A stretch of 53,916 nucleotides of DNA from Planctomycetota bacterium. GTDB lineage: Bacteria; Planctomycetota; UBA1135; GCA-002748355. A model generated the notes under the pieces. That model searched no databases, was not told where the DNA came from, and saw only the letters and a program-made list of their open reading frames with translations. The stretch spans positions 1 through 53,916 of the forward strand of contig NYZE01000053.1 of the NCBI GenBank assembly GCA_002685965.1. Direction: 5' to 3'. Of the stretch, positions 2,174 through 51,841 are shown in pieces; position 1 is the first letter of the stretch, and every line of letters starts with the position of its first letter. Position numbers and translations under genes: made by a program.

Positions 2174-2398
2174 ATGCACATCACGATCGAATACTGCGTT
2201 CTCTGAAACTACGAGCCGCAGGCGTCCAGTTTGGGCGCCGCGATTCGTGAGAAGCACGCGGATGCCGAGGTCGAGCTGATCGAGGGCGGCCGCGGCGACT
2301 TCGTCGTCAAGAACGATGGCGCCGAGCTCTGGAACAAGCGGGCGATGGGGGACGAGTTCCCCGAGAACGACGTGATCCTGGAGAAACTGGCTTCGTAG
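2174..2398 (+). CDS. SelW/Rdx-family selenoprotein (in-frame UGA = selenocysteine)
   Basis: 74 aa when the TGA at 2204-2206 is read as selenocysteine: it begins MHITIEYCVLUNYEPQA and ends with TAG. The CxxU motif (C8, U11) sits after the first beta strand and is followed by NYxPxA, the arrangement of the SelT/SelW/SelH (Rdx) thioredoxin-like family, which is thought to act in thiol redox reactions. The remainder (EVELIEGGRGDFVV, then a C-terminal helix) fits the 70-90 aa length of bacterial SelW-like proteins. The frame stays open for 63 codons after the TGA with coding-like GC-rich third positions. A hairpin at 2221-2239 fits a bacterial SECIS. An in-frame TAG 12 nt upstream leaves this ATG as the only reasonable start. 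No SD lies at the usual distance; the gene has its own -35/-10 and may be leaderless. The ORF track lacks it because of the TGA. SelA, SelB, SelC and SelD are not in this window. Confidence 0.92.
2221..2239 (+). promoter_or_regulatory. Predicted bacterial SECIS hairpin
   Basis: GGCGTCCA-GTT-TGGGCGCC forms an uninterrupted 8-bp stem (one G-U pair) with a 3-nt GUU loop inside the selW-like coding region. The loop starts 22 nt after the UGA, within the 16-37 nt typical of bacterial SECIS elements, and its first base is the G expected for SelB recognition. Confidence 0.8.
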
Positions 2399-6305: not shown

Positions 6306-7799
6306 CTACAAGTAGTTCATGAGAGTGCCAACGCTGCGAACAACAACGTCGGCGTCGACATCGGCGAACTCGTAGTCGCTTCGAGTGGTTTCGCCCGACA
6401 GGACGAGAACCGAGGTCAGGCGTGGGTCTGCACCGAGCGCGATGTCGGTGTAGAGGCGGTCGCCGATGACGACTGCGTCTTCTAGTGCGATCCCTGCGGC
6501 CTCGAGGACACCGGTGATGAAGTCGGGGTCCGGTTTGCCGAAGGTCCGCAGCGGCATCTGACCGGTGGTCATCTCGACGACCTTCATGAAGGTTCCGATG
6601 TCGGGCAGGTCGCCGTGCGGCGTCGGGCAGACGACGTCGAGATGCGTTGCGTAGTACGGGATGCCTGAGCGCACGAGCGAGGTCAGCTTCCCCAGCTTGG
6701 CAAAGGTCAGGTCCGTGTCGTACGTGAGCAGGCAAGCCTCGGGCGACTCTTCATCGAACTCGAAGCCCTCACTGCGGATGTAGTTCGACACCTCTTCGTT
6801 GGCGAGCCAATAGAGCCGCGTCAGCCTCTGCCGCTTCAAGTAGTGCAGCGCCGCTTGGATCGATACCAACACGTCGGCTTCTGAGACGTCGAAGCCGATG
6901 CGACGCAAGTTGCTGGCATGAGCGCCGGGGCTCCTCGAGGAGTTGTTGGTCAGAACGTAGACCTGTCGCCCCGTCGACTTGAGCCTCGAGAGGAAGCCCT
7001 CGGCCCCGTCGAGGATCGTGTCGGACAATGTCAGCGTGCCGTCGCGATCGACGAAGAAGACCTTCTTGTCGGCGAGCGAGGCGAGGCGCTCGTTGAACAT
7101 CAGCTCAGCTTCGGCCAAGTCGTCGTAGGTGTCGATCTCGTACCATCGGGCCTCGCCGATCTCACACGGCGTTGCCGTGAGCTCGCCGGAGCGGAACAGG
7201 TTGTCGAGCATGCGCTCGGTCCACTGGTTGCGATCGCCGCTGCCAATGATCCGTTCGAGTTCACCGACGACCCGGGTCAGGCCGACCGCATCGAGGCGGT
7301 AGGCATCGGTCGAGCGGCCCCACGACTCGGTGGCGCCGTATGTCTTCGAGATCCCGGAGATGCGGCCGTCCTCGACGAGCACCTTCATCGACTCCTCGTC
7401 CCAGGTGCCGCGATCGACGGCGACCGCCGAGCCTGTCATGGCGGCCAGGCCGGCGATCAGGTCGCTATCGAAGACAACGTCACCGTTCATCAGCAAGACG
7501 TCGCCCGTGAGGTGTTCGCGGGCGAGCCACAGGCTGAACATGTTGTTGGTCGAATCGTACTCGTTGTTGACGACGAAGGAGATGTCGAGGTTGGGGTGAG
7601 CGGTTGCGCAGTAATCGCGCACTTGCTCGGCGCGATAGCCGACCACGATCGCGACCTCTGTGATGCCGTTGCCGGCGAGCGCGTCGAGCAAGTGGCCGAG
7701 GATCGGCTTGCCAACGACCCTTACGAGCGTCTTGGGCTTGTCGTCGGTGATCGGCCGCAGGCGCGAGCCGACGCCGGCCGCGAGGATGATTGCTTTCAT
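6306..7799 (-). CDS. Sugar/polyol-phosphate nucleotidyltransferase fused to HAD-IIA phosphatase
   Basis: 497 aa from the ATG at 7799; the track start at 8051 lies inside the preceding gene. Residues 1-240 are a nucleotidyltransferase (AAGVGSRLRPITDDKPK, the GxGxRLxPxT...PK signature) of the LicC/RfbA-like type. Residues about 250-497 are a NagD-like HAD phosphatase: motif I DRDGTL, motif II TNNSS, motif III lysine in GKPDPDF, motif IV GDRLYTDI. The ATG overlaps the stop of the gpsA-like gene by 4 bp, so the two are translationally coupled. A dehydrogenase plus nucleotidyltransferase plus phosphatase would suit making a nucleotide-activated glycerol-type unit for surface glycan. The nucleotide and acceptor cannot be told from the sequence. 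Confidence 0.82.
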   Translation of the reverse strand: MKAIILAAGVGSRLRPITDDKPKTLVRVVGKPILGHLLDALAGNGITEVAIVVGYRAEQVRDYCATAHPNLDISFVVNNEYDSTNNMFSLWLAREHLTGDVLLMNGDVVFDSDLIAGLAAMTGSAVAVDRGTWDEESMKVLVEDGRISGISKTYGATESWGRSTDAYRLDAVGLTRVVGELERIIGSGDRNQWTERMLDNLFRSGELTATPCEIGEARWYEIDTYDDLAEAELMFNERLASLADKKVFFVDRDGTLTLSDTILDGAEGFLSRLKSTGRQVYVLTNNSSRSPGAHASNLRRIGFDVSEADVLVSIQAALHYLKRQRLTRLYWLANEEVSNYIRSEGFEFDEESPEACLLTYDTDLTFAKLGKLTSLVRSGIPYYATHLDVVCPTPHGDLPDIGTFMKVVEMTTGQMPLRTFGKPDPDFITGVLEAAGIALEDAVVIGDRLYTDIALGADPRLTSVLVLSGETTRSDYEFADVDADVVVRSVGTLMNYL

Positions 7800-8821
7800 C
7801 GTGTTTGATTGACCAACAACTGGCTGTTGAAGGTCGGGAGGTCGGTGCAGCCGGCGACGAAGTCGAACAATGCCGACAGGCGCGGATACTGATCCAGGTC
7901 GCCGACGCGACCGAGTGCCTTGATGGTGTTGACGCCTTCGACCGTCTTGCGCCCTTCGGTCATGACTTCGATGGCCTTGGCCAGAGTGAGGCCACGGCCG
8001 AGCAGGATCCCGAACTCTCGGTTGCGCGTGTTCCCGGTGCACGACAGCCACATGTCATTGCCCCACGCCTGGCTGCCGATCGTGAAGGTGGCCGGTTGCG
8101 CACCGAGTCGACTGACGGCCAGCTCTTCGACCTCCGCCGCCAGACGCGAGATCGTGTACGTCTGTGCACCGTGGGAAAGACCGGCGCCACTGGCGATACC
8201 AGCGCCGATCGCGACGACGCTCTTGAAAGCGGAAGCGCATTCCACGCCGACAAGGTCGTCGGTCGGGTAGATGAACAAGCGTGGAGATTGCAGTAGCTGT
8301 TGTAGCTCGCTGCGCATCTCGGCGTTGGCGCAGGCGAGGCTCGCGCCGAGCGGTTCGGCACCTATCAGATCGCTGGCGATCGTGCCGCCTGCGAGTAGCG
8401 CGTAGCTGGCCAGCTTGGAGCCAAGGGTCTCCTGCACGACAGAGGACAAGGGCTGGCCGGTCTCGTGGTCCAGGGCCTTGGCCGTGTTGAGCACGGCGAT
8501 CGGACGCGCTAGCCGCGGCGCGATGCTCGCCAGCACTTCGCGTGTTGCGTTCGACTCGACGGCGAGGATCAAGAGGTCGGCGTCGCGAATGGCATCGATG
8601 TTCGGCTCGACGGCGATCTCGTGGCTGATGCAGGTGCCGGAGTGGTGCCACGGGTGGTGACGATCGGCGTTCAGGCCGGCGCGGACCTCGGCGTTGCGGT
8701 CGAAGGCCCGGATCCTCCATGCGTCCGACGGCAGCTGTTCGCCGAGGTGCTTGAGCAGGGCAAAGCCGAAGTTTCCGACCCCGTAGAGAAACGCTGTCTT
8801 TGTTGCTTGTGCGACCTGCAT
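7796..8821 (-). CDS. gpsA: Glycerol-3-phosphate dehydrogenase (NAD(P)+)-like protein
   Basis: 341 aa from the ATG at 8821, chosen because GGGAG lies 6 nt upstream and the NAD-binding strand (FLYGVGNFGF, GxGxxG) follows directly. The track start at 8917 would add 32 unlikely residues. Lysines expected in this family are present (NTAKALDHETG and ECASAFKSVVAIGAG). The family reduces dihydroxyacetone phosphate to sn-glycerol-3-phosphate. Because it is coupled to the nucleotidyltransferase-HAD gene, this copy may serve surface-glycan synthesis rather than lipid synthesis, and could act on a related ketose phosphate. Divergent from the TPR gene at 8960. Confidence 0.82.
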   Translation of the reverse strand: MQVAQATKTAFLYGVGNFGFALLKHLGEQLPSDAWRIRAFDRNAEVRAGLNADRHHPWHHSGTCISHEIAVEPNIDAIRDADLLILAVESNATREVLASIAPRLARPIAVLNTAKALDHETGQPLSSVVQETLGSKLASYALLAGGTIASDLIGAEPLGASLACANAEMRSELQQLLQSPRLFIYPTDDLVGVECASAFKSVVAIGAGIASGAGLSHGAQTYTISRLAAEVEELAVSRLGAQPATFTIGSQAWGNDMWLSCTGNTRNREFGILLGRGLTLAKAIEVMTEGRKTVEGVNTIKALGRVGDLDQYPRLSALFDFVAGCTDLPTFNSQLLVNQTR

Positions 8822-26448: not shown

Positions 26449-28749
26449 ATGACGATGACGACCCCCCTCCAACTCACCCTCGACCAACTCGAGGCCGACT
26501 ACGGCAACATCGACAAGGTTCGCCTGTTCATCGATCAGTTCATCGACATCATGCTCAACCATCGGCAGAGCGGCCATCCAGGCGGCTCGCGGTCGAAGGC
26601 GCACATGATGGCGGCGCTGATGACGACCGGCGCGATGCGTTGGGATGTTCGTGACCCGACCAAGGCGCTCGCGGATCGTTTCGTGCTCGTTGCCGGACAC
26701 ACGACACCGTTGCTCTACGGAGCGCTCGCGGTCGTCAATCAGGCGATGGCGCTGCGTCACGAGTGGACGGGCGACGCGCGCTTCGCCGTCAAGGGTGGTC
26801 CTGAGCGGATCCTGATGCCGCCGGACTTGCTGACGTTCCGCAGCCACGGTGGGCTTGCCGGGCACGCGGAGTTCGAGGGCAAGTCGCTGTTGGTCAAGTT
26901 CAACACCGGGCCATCCGGCCACGGCGCGCCGGCGGCAGTCGGTGAGGCGCTGGCGCTCAAGCACGCCGGGTGTGGCGACGTCAGGGTGTTTGCGATGGAG
27001 GGGGAGGGCGGTCACTCGGCTGGCTGCCACCACGAGTCGAAGAACAGCGCCTACGGGCTGGGGTTGAGCAACCTCGTCTACCTGATGGACTGGAACGACG
27101 CTGGCATCGACGTCAACGCCTACAGCTCGGTCGTGCACGGCGCGCCTGAGGATTGGTTCCGTCCGTATGGGTTCCGCGTCAGCGGCACGGAGCAGGGCAG
27201 CGACATGGCGAGCATCGTGCCGGCGCTGTGGGATGCTGCTTGCGGTGACAATCCCGAGGGGCGGCCGAGTGTTTGCTGGTTCAAGACGGTGAAGGGGCGC
27301 GGCTACGTCGTCACCGGGTACAAGTCGCACGGCGCGGCGCACAAGCGCAACCACGAGAACTTCTGGACCTGTCGGCAGGAGTTCATGGACACCTACGGTG
27401 CGGAGTTCGCGGGGCACGGCGACGGCGACCCGGGAATGCCGGCCGCGAGCGAGCAGGCGGCGAGCCACCTGAGGACGGTGAACGACGCAATGGCGGCTGA
27501 CCGCGAGTTCGTCGAGTGGCTGACCGATCGCCTCGTGGCCATCGGCGACAGCGTTCCCGAGCGCGTGGGCGGGCAGCGCGTGGACCCGACGGTCGACTTG
27601 CTGCGCGACGATGCGACGTTCACCGACTACGAGAACTACCCGGCCGAGTTGTTCGCGGCGCCGGGGAGCAAGCAGCCGAACCGCAAGGCGCTCGAGTTGC
27701 TGGGGGCGTTCTGGAACTCCTACGCGCTGGAGAAGCACGGTCGGCCGCTCGTGCTCGCGATGGCCGCCGACCTCGCGGAATCGACCAACATCGCCGGCTT
27801 CATGAAGGACTTCGGAGGGCGCAAGGGCACCGGATGGTACGAGCGCGCCTCGAACACGATCGGCGCACTCCTGCCGCAGCAGATCACAGAGTTCACGAAC
27901 GCCGGGATCTGCGCCGGGCTCGGGACGGTCAACTTCGCCGACGACCCCGAGAACAAGTTCTGCGGCTATGTCGGTGCGTGTGCGACCTACGGCTCGTTCT
28001 CGTATCTGAAGTACGGCATGTTTCGGCTCTTCTCGCAGCTGGCGCAGGATTGCGACATCAAGACCGGGCGCGTCCTGTGGATCGCGGGCCACTCCGGCCC
28101 CGAGACTGCCGAGGACGCACGCACGCACTTCGGGATCTTCTCTCCCGGCGTAACGCAGCTGTTCCCGGATGGACACGTGATCAACCTGCATCCGTGGGAG
28201 CACAACGAAGTCGCACCGATGCTCGGGGCTGCCTTCGCTACCGACGTGCCCGTCATTGCCCTGCACCTGACGCGACCGCCGGTCGAGATCCCGGATCGCG
28301 ATGTGCTCGGGATGGCGTCACACTTCGATGCGGCCAAGGGCGCCTACGTGCTGCGGCAGTTCGATGACCGTGAGCGAGCTGGCGTGGTGCTGTGCCAGGG
28401 CACGAGCGTCGTCGCCAACATCGTCAAAATCTTGCCGTGGCTTGCCTCCGACGGCCCCAACGTCAAGATCGTCTGTTGCACGTCGCGCGAGTTGTTCGTG
28501 CGCCAGAGCCAGGAGTATCAAGACGGCGTCCTGCCCGAAGCCGAGTGGCACGATTCGATGCTCTGTGCCACGCAGGGCCGCCGCGTCTGCCGCGACTGGA
28601 TCCCCGACCGCCGCCTTGAGCAGTGGGCCCTGACGCCGGACTTCGACGACGCCTGGCGCACCGGCGGCTCCGTCGACGAGATCGTCGCCGAAGCCCACCT
28701 CGACCCCGACAGCCTCAAGGCCGGCATTTCCCGCTACGCCGCCCGCTAG
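26449..28749 (+). CDS. Transketolase (divergent, long form)
   Basis: 766 aa from the ATG at 26449 (26455 is also possible; the track start overlaps rbfA). Thiamine-diphosphate enzyme with SGHPGGS near the N-terminus, a GPSGHGAP motif, the ThDP/metal motif GEGGHSAG...DWN, and a pyrimidine-binding domain containing AADLAESTNIAGF. The C-terminal domain carries HSGPE and VVLCQGTSVV. Transketolases move two-carbon units in the pentose phosphate or Calvin-type cycles. At about 100 residues longer than the common enzyme and with unusual first-domain sequence, it belongs to a divergent branch, and substrate range cannot be assumed. Cytoplasmic. A 6-bp hairpin follows the stop. Confidence 0.85.
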   Translation: MTMTTPLQLTLDQLEADYGNIDKVRLFIDQFIDIMLNHRQSGHPGGSRSKAHMMAALMTTGAMRWDVRDPTKALADRFVLVAGHTTPLLYGALAVVNQAMALRHEWTGDARFAVKGGPERILMPPDLLTFRSHGGLAGHAEFEGKSLLVKFNTGPSGHGAPAAVGEALALKHAGCGDVRVFAMEGEGGHSAGCHHESKNSAYGLGLSNLVYLMDWNDAGIDVNAYSSVVHGAPEDWFRPYGFRVSGTEQGSDMASIVPALWDAACGDNPEGRPSVCWFKTVKGRGYVVTGYKSHGAAHKRNHENFWTCRQEFMDTYGAEFAGHGDGDPGMPAASEQAASHLRTVNDAMAADREFVEWLTDRLVAIGDSVPERVGGQRVDPTVDLLRDDATFTDYENYPAELFAAPGSKQPNRKALELLGAFWNSYALEKHGRPLVLAMAADLAESTNIAGFMKDFGGRKGTGWYERASNTIGALLPQQITEFTNAGICAGLGTVNFADDPENKFCGYVGACATYGSFSYLKYGMFRLFSQLAQDCDIKTGRVLWIAGHSGPETAEDARTHFGIFSPGVTQLFPDGHVINLHPWEHNEVAPMLGAAFATDVPVIALHLTRPPVEIPDRDVLGMASHFDAAKGAYVLRQFDDRERAGVVLCQGTSVVANIVKILPWLASDGPNVKIVCCTSRELFVRQSQEYQDGVLPEAEWHDSMLCATQGRRVCRDWIPDRRLEQWALTPDFDDAWRTGGSVDEIVAEAHLDPDSLKAGISRYAAR

Positions 28750-49166: not shown

Positions 49167-49592
49167 TTACCGCACCGCCGTCACCATGATCTCTACGAGG
49201 GCGTCCTTGGGTAGTCGGGCTGCTTGAACGGCGGCGCGGGCGGGCGGACCGTTCTTGAAGCGGGCGGCATAGATGCGGTTCATCGCTGCATAGTCGTTGA
49301 GGTCGGCGAGGAAGACGATCACTTGGACGACGTTGTCGAAGTCAGTGCCGGCGGCGGCGAGGACGGCTTCGATGTTGTAGAGGACGCGTTCGGTTTGGGC
49401 CTCGATACCCGTGGCCATCTTGCCGGTAGCGGGGTCGATGGCGATCTGGCCGGCGCACCAGACCGTGTTGCCGACGCGGATGGCCTGAGAATAGGGTCCA
49501 ATGGCGGCGGGAGCGCGGTCGGTCGAGATGACCTGCTTGGCGGGTGCTGCACAGGCACCGAGGCAGAGAACGAGAGCGAGAGCGAGCTTCAT
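49167..49592 (-). CDS. RidA-family enamine/imine deaminase, predicted lipoprotein
   Basis: 141 aa from the ATG at 49592, which overlaps the previous stop by 4 bp; the longer track start would bury the signal. The N-terminal MKLALALVLCLGACAAPAK is a clear lipoprotein signal (LGAC). The rest is a full YjgF/YER057c/UK114 (RidA) domain: APAAIGPYSQAIRVGNTVWCAGQIAIDPATG, ARFKNGPPARAAVQAARLPKDALVEI with the conserved Arg and Glu. Cytoplasmic RidA hydrolyses reactive 2-aminoacrylate-type enamines from PLP enzymes. An exported RidA beside an exported PLP enzyme suggests the same task in the periplasm. Confidence 0.88.
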   Translation of the reverse strand: MKLALALVLCLGACAAPAKQVISTDRAPAAIGPYSQAIRVGNTVWCAGQIAIDPATGKMATGIEAQTERVLYNIEAVLAAAGTDFDNVVQVIVFLADLNDYAAMNRIYAARFKNGPPARAAVQAARLPKDALVEIMVTAVR

Positions 49593-51841
49593 TTGGAGTC
49601 CTCGGTCTTCGATGGGGGTTTGCCGAGCAGGTATTGGCCGGGCCACCACTGATCGTCGTGTCCGTAGTCAGCCGCGGCGTGCAGCGTCAGGTAGGGGTTG
49701 CGCAAGTGTGGGCGCGCGAGTGCGCAGAGGTCGGCGCGGCCGGCGGCGAGAATCGTGTTGGCGTGGTCCGTGCCGAGGATCGCGCCGACCGCCATGACAG
49801 GAATGCCGACCTCGTAGCGGATCTGCTCGGCGAACGGAACCTGGAACATGCGGCCGTAGATGGGTTCTGAGGCTGTGACGTTGCCGGAGGACGAAACGTC
49901 GATCAGATCGAGTCCGTGCTCGTGCAACAAGCGCGCGACGATGACCGAGTCGTCAGCGGTCAGTCCACCGTCATCGTCGAGCCAGTCCGTTGCGGAGATG
50001 CGCACGGAGAGCGGCTTGGCTGCTGGCCACGTGCGCCGGACCGCGTCGAACACTTCGAGCGGGTAGCGCATGCGCGCTTCGATTTCGCCGCCGTATACGT
50101 CACGCCTCCGATTGGTCAACGGAGAGATGAAGTTGGACAGAAGATAGCCATGTGCCATGTGCAGCTCGACTAGGTCGAAGCCGCAGTCCTCGGCCATCTC
50201 GGTGGCCCGCACGAAGGCATCGCGCACGTCGTTCATGTCGGCGCGATCCATCTCCTTCGGTACCTGATGGCCGTCGGCGAAGGCGAGCGGCGATGGCGCC
50301 ATCGTTGGCCACGCCTCACTCGCGGGCAGCGGCACGTCCCACCCGTCCCACGGGTGCGAGCACGACCCCTTGCGCCCTGCGTGCGCGAGCTGCAAGCCGA
50401 TCTTTGCGGGCGTTTCGGTGTGCACGAAGTCGGTGATGCGCTTCCAGGCCGCGACGTGTGCCGTGTCGTACATGCCCGCGCAGGCTGGCGTGATGCGGCC
50501 GTTCGTCGTCACGTTGGTCATCTCGGTGAGCACGAGTGCGGCGCCGCCGATAGCGCGGCTGCCGAGGTGCACCAGATGCCAGTCGGTGACCGTTCCATCG
50601 ACCGCCGAGTACTGGCACATGGGTGATACGACCATGCGATTGGCGAGTTCGAGGTCGCGCAATCGGAACGGTGCAAAGATCGGCGCCGCCAACGGTGCCG
50701 TCCCCTCCTCTTCGGCGAACCTCTCGGTGACAAGTTCGACCAGCGCCGGGTCGCGTATGCCAAGGTTGTCGTAGGTGATCTGCTTGCTGCGCGACATCAA
50801 GTTGAACTTGAAGCGCACCGGGTCCTGGCCGAGATACCGGGCCGAGTTCTCGAACCACTCGAGACTCGTTTGTGCCGCCTTCTGCGTCTTGAGCACGTCG
50901 ACGAACCGTGCTTCTTCATAAGCCTGGAGCACGCGTGGCACGTCGGCCGTGCCCAGTTCCTTGAACGCCTCTGTCAGCGCGATCGCGTCCTCCATCGCCA
51001 GTTTCGTCCCGGAGCCGATCGAGAAGTGCGCGGTGTGCGCCGAGTCGCCCATCAACACCACGTTCTCGTGGTGCCAGGTCTTACACTTGACGGTTGGGAA
51101 CGACCGCCAAAGGGAGCGATTGGTCAGGAGATGCGCACCGTCGAGTTCCTCGGCGAATAGCGCTTCACACCATCGCGCAGATTCCTCCTCGTCCATCACG
51201 TCGAGGCCCGCCCGCTTCCACGCGTCTTCGCGACACTCGACGATCCACGTGGCGCGGCCCTCCTCGAACGGGTAGGCGTGCACCTGGAACAAGCCGTGCT
51301 CGGTCTCCTTGAAAATGAAGGTGAATGCGTCGAGCACCCGGTCCGACCCGAACCAAGCGAACTTGCACTTACGCATGTCGATGTGCGGGCGAAACGTCTC
51401 CTTGTAGCGGTCGCGCACGAGGGAGTTGTAGCCGTCACAACCGATCACGAGGTCGGCGTCACGCAGCGCTTCGAAGTCGGCGATCTCGCTGCCGAAGTGT
51501 AGATCCACACCGAGGGCGCGACAGCGGTCCTGCAGGATCAACAGGAGCTTCTTGCGCGATAGTCCACAGAAGCCGTGTCCGGTCGAGTGCGTGCACGTGC
51601 CACGGTAGAACGTGTTGATGCCCTGCCAATAGATGAAGTTATTGCGGATCTCGTTGAAGCTCTCCGGGTCGGCGCCTTCGAGGTTGTCGAGCGTCTCGTC
51701 CGAGAACACGACGCCCCAGCCGAAGGTGTCGTCGTGCTTGTTGCGTTCGTGCACGGTGACCTCAGCGTTAGGGAGCGCCTTCTTGATCAAGATTCCGAAG
51801 AAGAGCCCTGCGGGTCCGCCGCCGATCGAGATGATCCTCAT
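49589..51841 (-). CDS. 2-Aminobenzoyl-CoA monooxygenase/reductase- or salicylyl-CoA 5-hydroxylase-like fusion
   Basis: 750 aa. The N-terminal domain (1-380) is a group A FAD monooxygenase: GGGPAGLFFGILIKK (GxGxxG), the distal DG-type region LVIGCDGYNSLVRD, and GDSAHTAHFSIGSGTKLAMEDA. The second domain (388-745) is of the old yellow enzyme family: FAPFRLRDLELANRMVVSPMCQYSAVDG, HAGRKGSC and FGFDLVELHMAHGYLLSNFISPLTN. This order is that of 2-aminobenzoyl-CoA monooxygenase/reductase and of salicylyl-CoA 5-hydroxylase, both acting on aromatic CoA thioesters. The 4-bp overlaps on both sides couple it to a 73-aa gene and a RidA lipoprotein. No CoA ligase or other ring-degradation gene is visible, so the substrate is uncertain. 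Confidence 0.85.
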   Translation of the reverse strand: MRIISIGGGPAGLFFGILIKKALPNAEVTVHERNKHDDTFGWGVVFSDETLDNLEGADPESFNEIRNNFIYWQGINTFYRGTCTHSTGHGFCGLSRKKLLLILQDRCRALGVDLHFGSEIADFEALRDADLVIGCDGYNSLVRDRYKETFRPHIDMRKCKFAWFGSDRVLDAFTFIFKETEHGLFQVHAYPFEEGRATWIVECREDAWKRAGLDVMDEEESARWCEALFAEELDGAHLLTNRSLWRSFPTVKCKTWHHENVVLMGDSAHTAHFSIGSGTKLAMEDAIALTEAFKELGTADVPRVLQAYEEARFVDVLKTQKAAQTSLEWFENSARYLGQDPVRFKFNLMSRSKQITYDNLGIRDPALVELVTERFAEEEGTAPLAAPIFAPFRLRDLELANRMVVSPMCQYSAVDGTVTDWHLVHLGSRAIGGAALVLTEMTNVTTNGRITPACAGMYDTAHVAAWKRITDFVHTETPAKIGLQLAHAGRKGSCSHPWDGWDVPLPASEAWPTMAPSPLAFADGHQVPKEMDRADMNDVRDAFVRATEMAEDCGFDLVELHMAHGYLLSNFISPLTNRRRDVYGGEIEARMRYPLEVFDAVRRTWPAAKPLSVRISATDWLDDDGGLTADDSVIVARLLHEHGLDLIDVSSSGNVTASEPIYGRMFQVPFAEQIRYEVGIPVMAVGAILGTDHANTILAAGRADLCALARPHLRNPYLTLHAAADYGHDDQWWPGQYLLGKPPSKTEDSK

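Follow-up and report, generated by a model that had tools for sequence, protein, structure and literature searches.

A predicted stand-alone SelW-like selenoprotein gene with an in-frame TGA and a bacterial SECIS hairpin in a Planctomycetota genome

The region at positions 2174-2398 of the analysed DNA (the window, a stretch of 53,916 nucleotides from a Planctomycetota bacterium) was identified as a stand-alone gene for a SelW-like selenoprotein of the SelT/SelW/SelH group (Rdx, PF10262), and we put the probability of this reading at about 97%. The call was confirmed by the sequence itself, the family assignment, a fold model, the presence of complete selenocysteine (Sec) machinery, the conserved position of the TGA and the covariation of the hairpin behind it. 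As judged from the sequence, the apparent stop codon UGA of this gene would serve for the insertion of Sec into a small thioredoxin-like redox protein. The features of the locus were as follows.

2174..2398, plus strand: selW-like coding sequence of 74 aa with predicted Sec at residue 11 (CxxU), stop codon TAG at 2396-2398
2195..2206, plus strand: redox motif C8-V-L-U11, with the Cys codon at 2195-2197 and the Sec TGA at 2204-2206
2221..2239, plus strand: predicted bacterial SECIS hairpin, with arms at 2221-2228 and 2232-2239 and the loop GUU at 2229-2231

The reading frame started with ATG at 2174, passed through the TGA at 2204-2206 and ended with TAG at 2396-2398, giving 74 codons in total. 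Past the TGA there were 63 sense codons before the natural stop, just as the earlier note on this DNA had stated. Since another in-frame TAG was located at 2162-2164, just upstream of the ATG, the ATG at 2174 was the sole plausible start, and inspection by eye of the region 5' of it found no Shine-Dalgarno sequence at normal spacing. The GC contents at the first, second and third codon positions past the TGA were 0.68, 0.37 and 0.89, respectively. This pattern resembled that of the flanking genes and bore out the GC-rich third positions that had been claimed for the frame. When the TGA was read as Sec, the product was MHITIEYCVLUNYEPQASSLGAAIREKHADAEVELIEGGRGDFVVKNDGAELWNKRAMGDEFPENDVILEKLAS.

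With U entered as C, the product matched the Pfam family Rdx (PF10262) from residue 2 to 72 with 51.9 bits (cut-off 22.6, E 8.8e-14), and it also exceeded the cut-off of TIGR02174 (CXXU_selWTH; 47.3 bits against 34.2). The search of the whole genome with the Rdx profile again recovered this locus above the cut-off, and phmmer matched the product to SelW-related structures and to MIEN1 (C17orf37). The structure was modelled on 29 relatives with Cys in place of Sec, and the predicted fold showed a mean pLDDT of 94.5. The motif C8-V-L-U11 was located after the first strand (residues 2-8) and before the helix of residues 14-27, as in the CxxU/CxxC arrangement of this family, and both Cys8 and the Sec position were invariant in the alignment of the 29 relatives. 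The best 21 matches in Foldseek were all SelW-like structures (2ojl, 2fa8, 2oka, 2obk, 3dex and 2p0g; E 4e-7 to 3e-5); MIEN1 and mouse SelW came next, and thioredoxins after them. The model superposed on the solved bacterial SelW-like structures with TM-scores of 0.85-0.92 (Foldseek), corresponding to the thioredoxin-like SelW fold. The assignment to the SelT/SelW/SelH family, first proposed from the letters of the DNA, was thus upheld by both family profiles and by the predicted fold.

The assembly containing the window (3.57 Mb, 167 contigs, about 93% complete) was searched for the Sec machinery. The earlier note had predicted that the organism encodes Sec, naming the search for selA, selB, selC and selD as the check and their absence as grounds for refutation, and all four were found. 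The genome carried one tRNA-Sec gene (selC) above the Rfam cut-off (73.4 bits, anticodon UCA), along with selB (331.6 bits), selA (445 bits) and selD (348 bits); selA and selD lay on one strand, 54 nt apart.

The selD gene (L018, G000:C2:6586-7506, minus strand) itself contained an in-frame TGA, within SSSGGUVAKM, followed by a stable hairpin. It is a candidate for a Sec-type SelD, a form known elsewhere, and the genome thus holds at least two selenoprotein candidates.

The stem downstream of the selW-like TGA, GGCGTCCA-GTT-TGGGCGCC at 2221-2239, was perfectly paired (8/8). The perfect 8-bp stem and the GUU loop were as described earlier, but the distance of 22 nt from the TGA applied to the loop, the stem beginning 14 nt after the TGA. 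The 66-nt fold around the hairpin gave a z-score of -3.1, and when the stretch was recoded synonymously, all 8 pairs were retained in only 1.5% of cases. The hairpins of the relatives kept a mean of 7.2 of the 8 pairs, compared to 5.2 in synonymous recodings; one-mismatch cases were common, and the fifth pair was most often affected. Across the eight pairs in 45 distinct sequences, pairing was kept in 90% of the cells, and cells with both bases changed numbered 41 when 15 were expected by shuffling. The covariation score was 0.369 compared to 0.168 for shuffled data (0/500 shuffles), and the register was unique, as sliding it by 1-3 positions dropped the pairing to 22-55%. Covariation was strongest for columns 21:33 (CG19/GC17/others), a pair that joined two third codon positions, and protein constraint was therefore no explanation for it. 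All 63 distinct sequences had G as the first loop base, and 59 had U as the second. Among the nine homologues of Cys or Gly type that were read, seven kept at most 5 of the 8 pairs, while two Gly-type copies kept 7, so that the contrast between the Sec-type genes and these homologues was clear but not absolute. The covariance model built for the SelW SECIS detected the selW-like site in its own genome with E 3e-11, the next best hit being at E 0.57. The model revealed no further selenoproteins in this genome because it was too specific to the SelW family. Rfam gave no match within the window at gathering scores.

The selW-like gene was present in six of the eight genomes of the same family (own genome included), each with exactly one in-frame TGA. 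In the sample of 392 genomes of the phylum, 136 matched SelW-like and 134 carried a TGA-bearing copy. Among the Sec-type genes read, U aligned with U at the same CxxU residue in 69 of 69, in agreement with the earlier placement of the TGA at the redox Cys/Sec position; seven of these genes came from assemblies labelled Gemmatimonadota, Holophagae, Chloroflexi and Puniceispirillum. The earlier note had also considered that relatives might show a stop with no conservation beyond it. Instead, the TGA was kept at the same residue and the protein was strongly conserved past it, with post-TGA dN/dS of about 0.3-0.7 against five of seven relatives by a simple method that was saturated for the other two pairs. 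Of the 134 genomes carrying a TGA-type copy, 117 yielded a tRNA-Sec gene, compared to 133 of the 258 others, a difference (Fisher p 5e-13) that is indicative only because the genomes are related. For 17 TGA-type genomes no tRNA-Sec was found; many of these assemblies were incomplete, and the filters applied in the large search were stricter.

These observations bear directly on the possibility that the TGA is a genuine stop codon or a nonsense mutation in a decaying Cys-type selW pseudogene, formed by a change of TGC or TGT to TGA. The Cys codons are indeed only one base away from TGA, and the gene is short. However, the same TGA was found in 134 of the 392 phylum genomes and in the seven genes from other named groups, the Sec machinery was complete, the protein was conserved past the TGA together with a covarying hairpin, and the Cys type, from which such a pseudogene would derive, was the rare state among the matches in the phylum. 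The shared TGA and the constraint beyond it already refuted this explanation, and we regard it as very improbable.

The expectation that some SelW-like proteins have Cys in place of Sec was met by at least one gene, L061, an apparent Cys orthologue in which the hairpin was mostly lost. Two other Cys-type genes, L062 and L069, were separate paralogues in genomes that also held a TGA-type copy, and five genomes with a Sec-type SelW contained a second SelW-like copy of CxxG type, in which glycine takes the place of Sec (L063-L067). As Cys-type genes were rare among the SelW-like matches in the phylum, the Sec form is supported as overwhelmingly retained among the genes read. It has also been considered that, in a phylum keeping SelW-like proteins overwhelmingly as Sec with few Cys orthologues, the CxxG second copies of some lineages might have a non-redox or regulatory role next to the Sec protein; this is speculation, and we hold it to be rather doubtful. 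The Sec/SECIS DNA of the window (2204-2239) was identical at 35 of 36 nt to that of L022 from Gemmatimonadales, although the SelW proteins were only about 49% identical. Joint constraint on protein and RNA, or gene transfer, could explain this identity. The two genes flanking the selW-like gene in the window encode a ChaN-like protein and a radical SAM protein of the MtaB type. In relatives, neither of them turned up within 1.5 kb of the selW-like gene, and the gene context therefore gave no functional support.

Decoding of the TGA as an amino acid other than Sec (e.g. Trp or Cys) by general or local recoding would be compatible with the sequence of the selW-like gene taken alone. The genome, however, possessed a dedicated tRNA-Sec(UCA) along with SelA, SelB and SelD, and the SECIS hairpin that followed the TGA carried the conserved G in its loop. 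In addition, some relatives (e.g. L038 and L043) appeared to end the same gene with TGA as the final stop, indicating that UGA is not generally reassigned there. We thus consider recoding to an amino acid other than Sec hardly credible.

The combination of a TGA, a long open frame, a G-loop hairpin of 7-8 bp and CxxU/UxxC was expected about 0.6 times per shuffled window of the same composition, and a mechanical scan of the window for a TGA with a hairpin and CxxU/UxxC indeed picked up one further case at 28717 on the minus strand. This site was antisense to a transketolase ORF and showed no Pfam match, and was rejected as a chance look-alike. The hairpin and the motif alone are therefore no proof; for the selW-like gene they were suggestive but insufficient, and homology and covariation were decisive. 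The least probable alternative of all was a chance frame, with the real gene lying either antisense (minus-strand ORFs 2042-2593 or 2209-2505) or downstream, in a shorter ORF from TTG 2231. In its favour, both antisense frames were open, and the TTG ORF of 55 aa might be called by a gene finder. These readings were rejected for lack of a family match (neither antisense frame matched Pfam), whereas the read-through sense frame matched Rdx from residue 2 to 72 and its protein was kept on either side of the TGA in relatives. This homology on both sides refuted the alternative.

Elsewhere in the window, two minus-strand ORFs each combined two domains: a nucleotidyl-transferase and a HAD-type hydrolase in 6306-8051, and an FAD-binding monooxygenase and an FMN oxidoreductase of the Old Yellow Enzyme type in 49589-51841.

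In bacterial Sec decoding, SelB binds a hairpin in the mRNA and delivers Sec-tRNA-Sec to the UGA. For the selenoprotein gene at 2174-2398, we infer from the parts present that SelA, with selenophosphate derived from SelD, would generate Sec-tRNA(UCA), and that SelB would bind the SECIS hairpin just 3' of the UGA at 2204-2206 and deliver the charged tRNA. Translation past the UGA would then run to the TAG at 2396, yielding a thioredoxin-like product of 74 aa in which the redox centre, C8-x-x-U11, would be placed after strand 1 and before helix 1. The CxxU motif and the modelled fold indicate that a redox role is the most likely one, probably thiol/disulphide (selenylsulphide) exchange in which either protein partners or small thiols, e.g. 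glutathione, would take part.

Bacterial SelW-like selenoproteins with CxxU were already described in 2005-2006 and 2008 (PMC1088965; PMC1794560; GOS, PMC2398784), and together with SelD they have been reported as the most widespread selenoproteins in marine samples (PMC1088965, PMC1794560, PMC2398784). Few Cys homologues of SelW-like proteins occur in Sec-using organisms (PMC1794560). The Sargasso Sea study of 2005 regarded the function as unclear but probably redox and noted interaction with glutathione (PMC1088965). The SelW gene of Campylobacter was overlooked by annotation (PMC4607533), and for SelW of C. jejuni, translation past the UGA to the full-length product was demonstrated by Ribo-seq and proteomics (PMC11955535). 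The latter is the closest direct precedent for read-through; in the window gene, Sec insertion is predicted from sequence. The window protein matched the family of Campylobacter SelW (NF041051, SelTWH_Campy) over residues 3-72 with E 4.8e-21, but its score of 74.8 bits, with C standing for U, was below the curated cut-off of 88, and by this curated criterion it is therefore a sister of the equivalog rather than a member. The solved SelW-related proteins (2ojl, 2fa8, 2oka, 2obk, 2p0g and 3dex) share the thioredoxin-like fold at 24-31% identity, and the alignments of 3dex and 2ojl had Cys where the window gene has Sec. For the planctomycetes P1 and P2, Sec machinery and selenoproteins were described, SelW not being mentioned in the main text (PMC4807772).

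The gene is of a kind that standard gene finders drop or truncate, and its call was clean and well supported. The comparative set of 69 Sec-type genes with the Cys and Gly forms could improve the annotation models for SelW-like genes in the phylum, while general knowledge of selenoproteins is unchanged. As the family, the misses in annotation and the scarcity of Cys homologues had all been described, the window gene represents one more member of this family. It shares with the known bacterial SelW-like selenoproteins the same CxxU site, the Rdx family, the SECIS just past the UGA and the small apical loop containing G, and differs from them only in host lineage and sequence.
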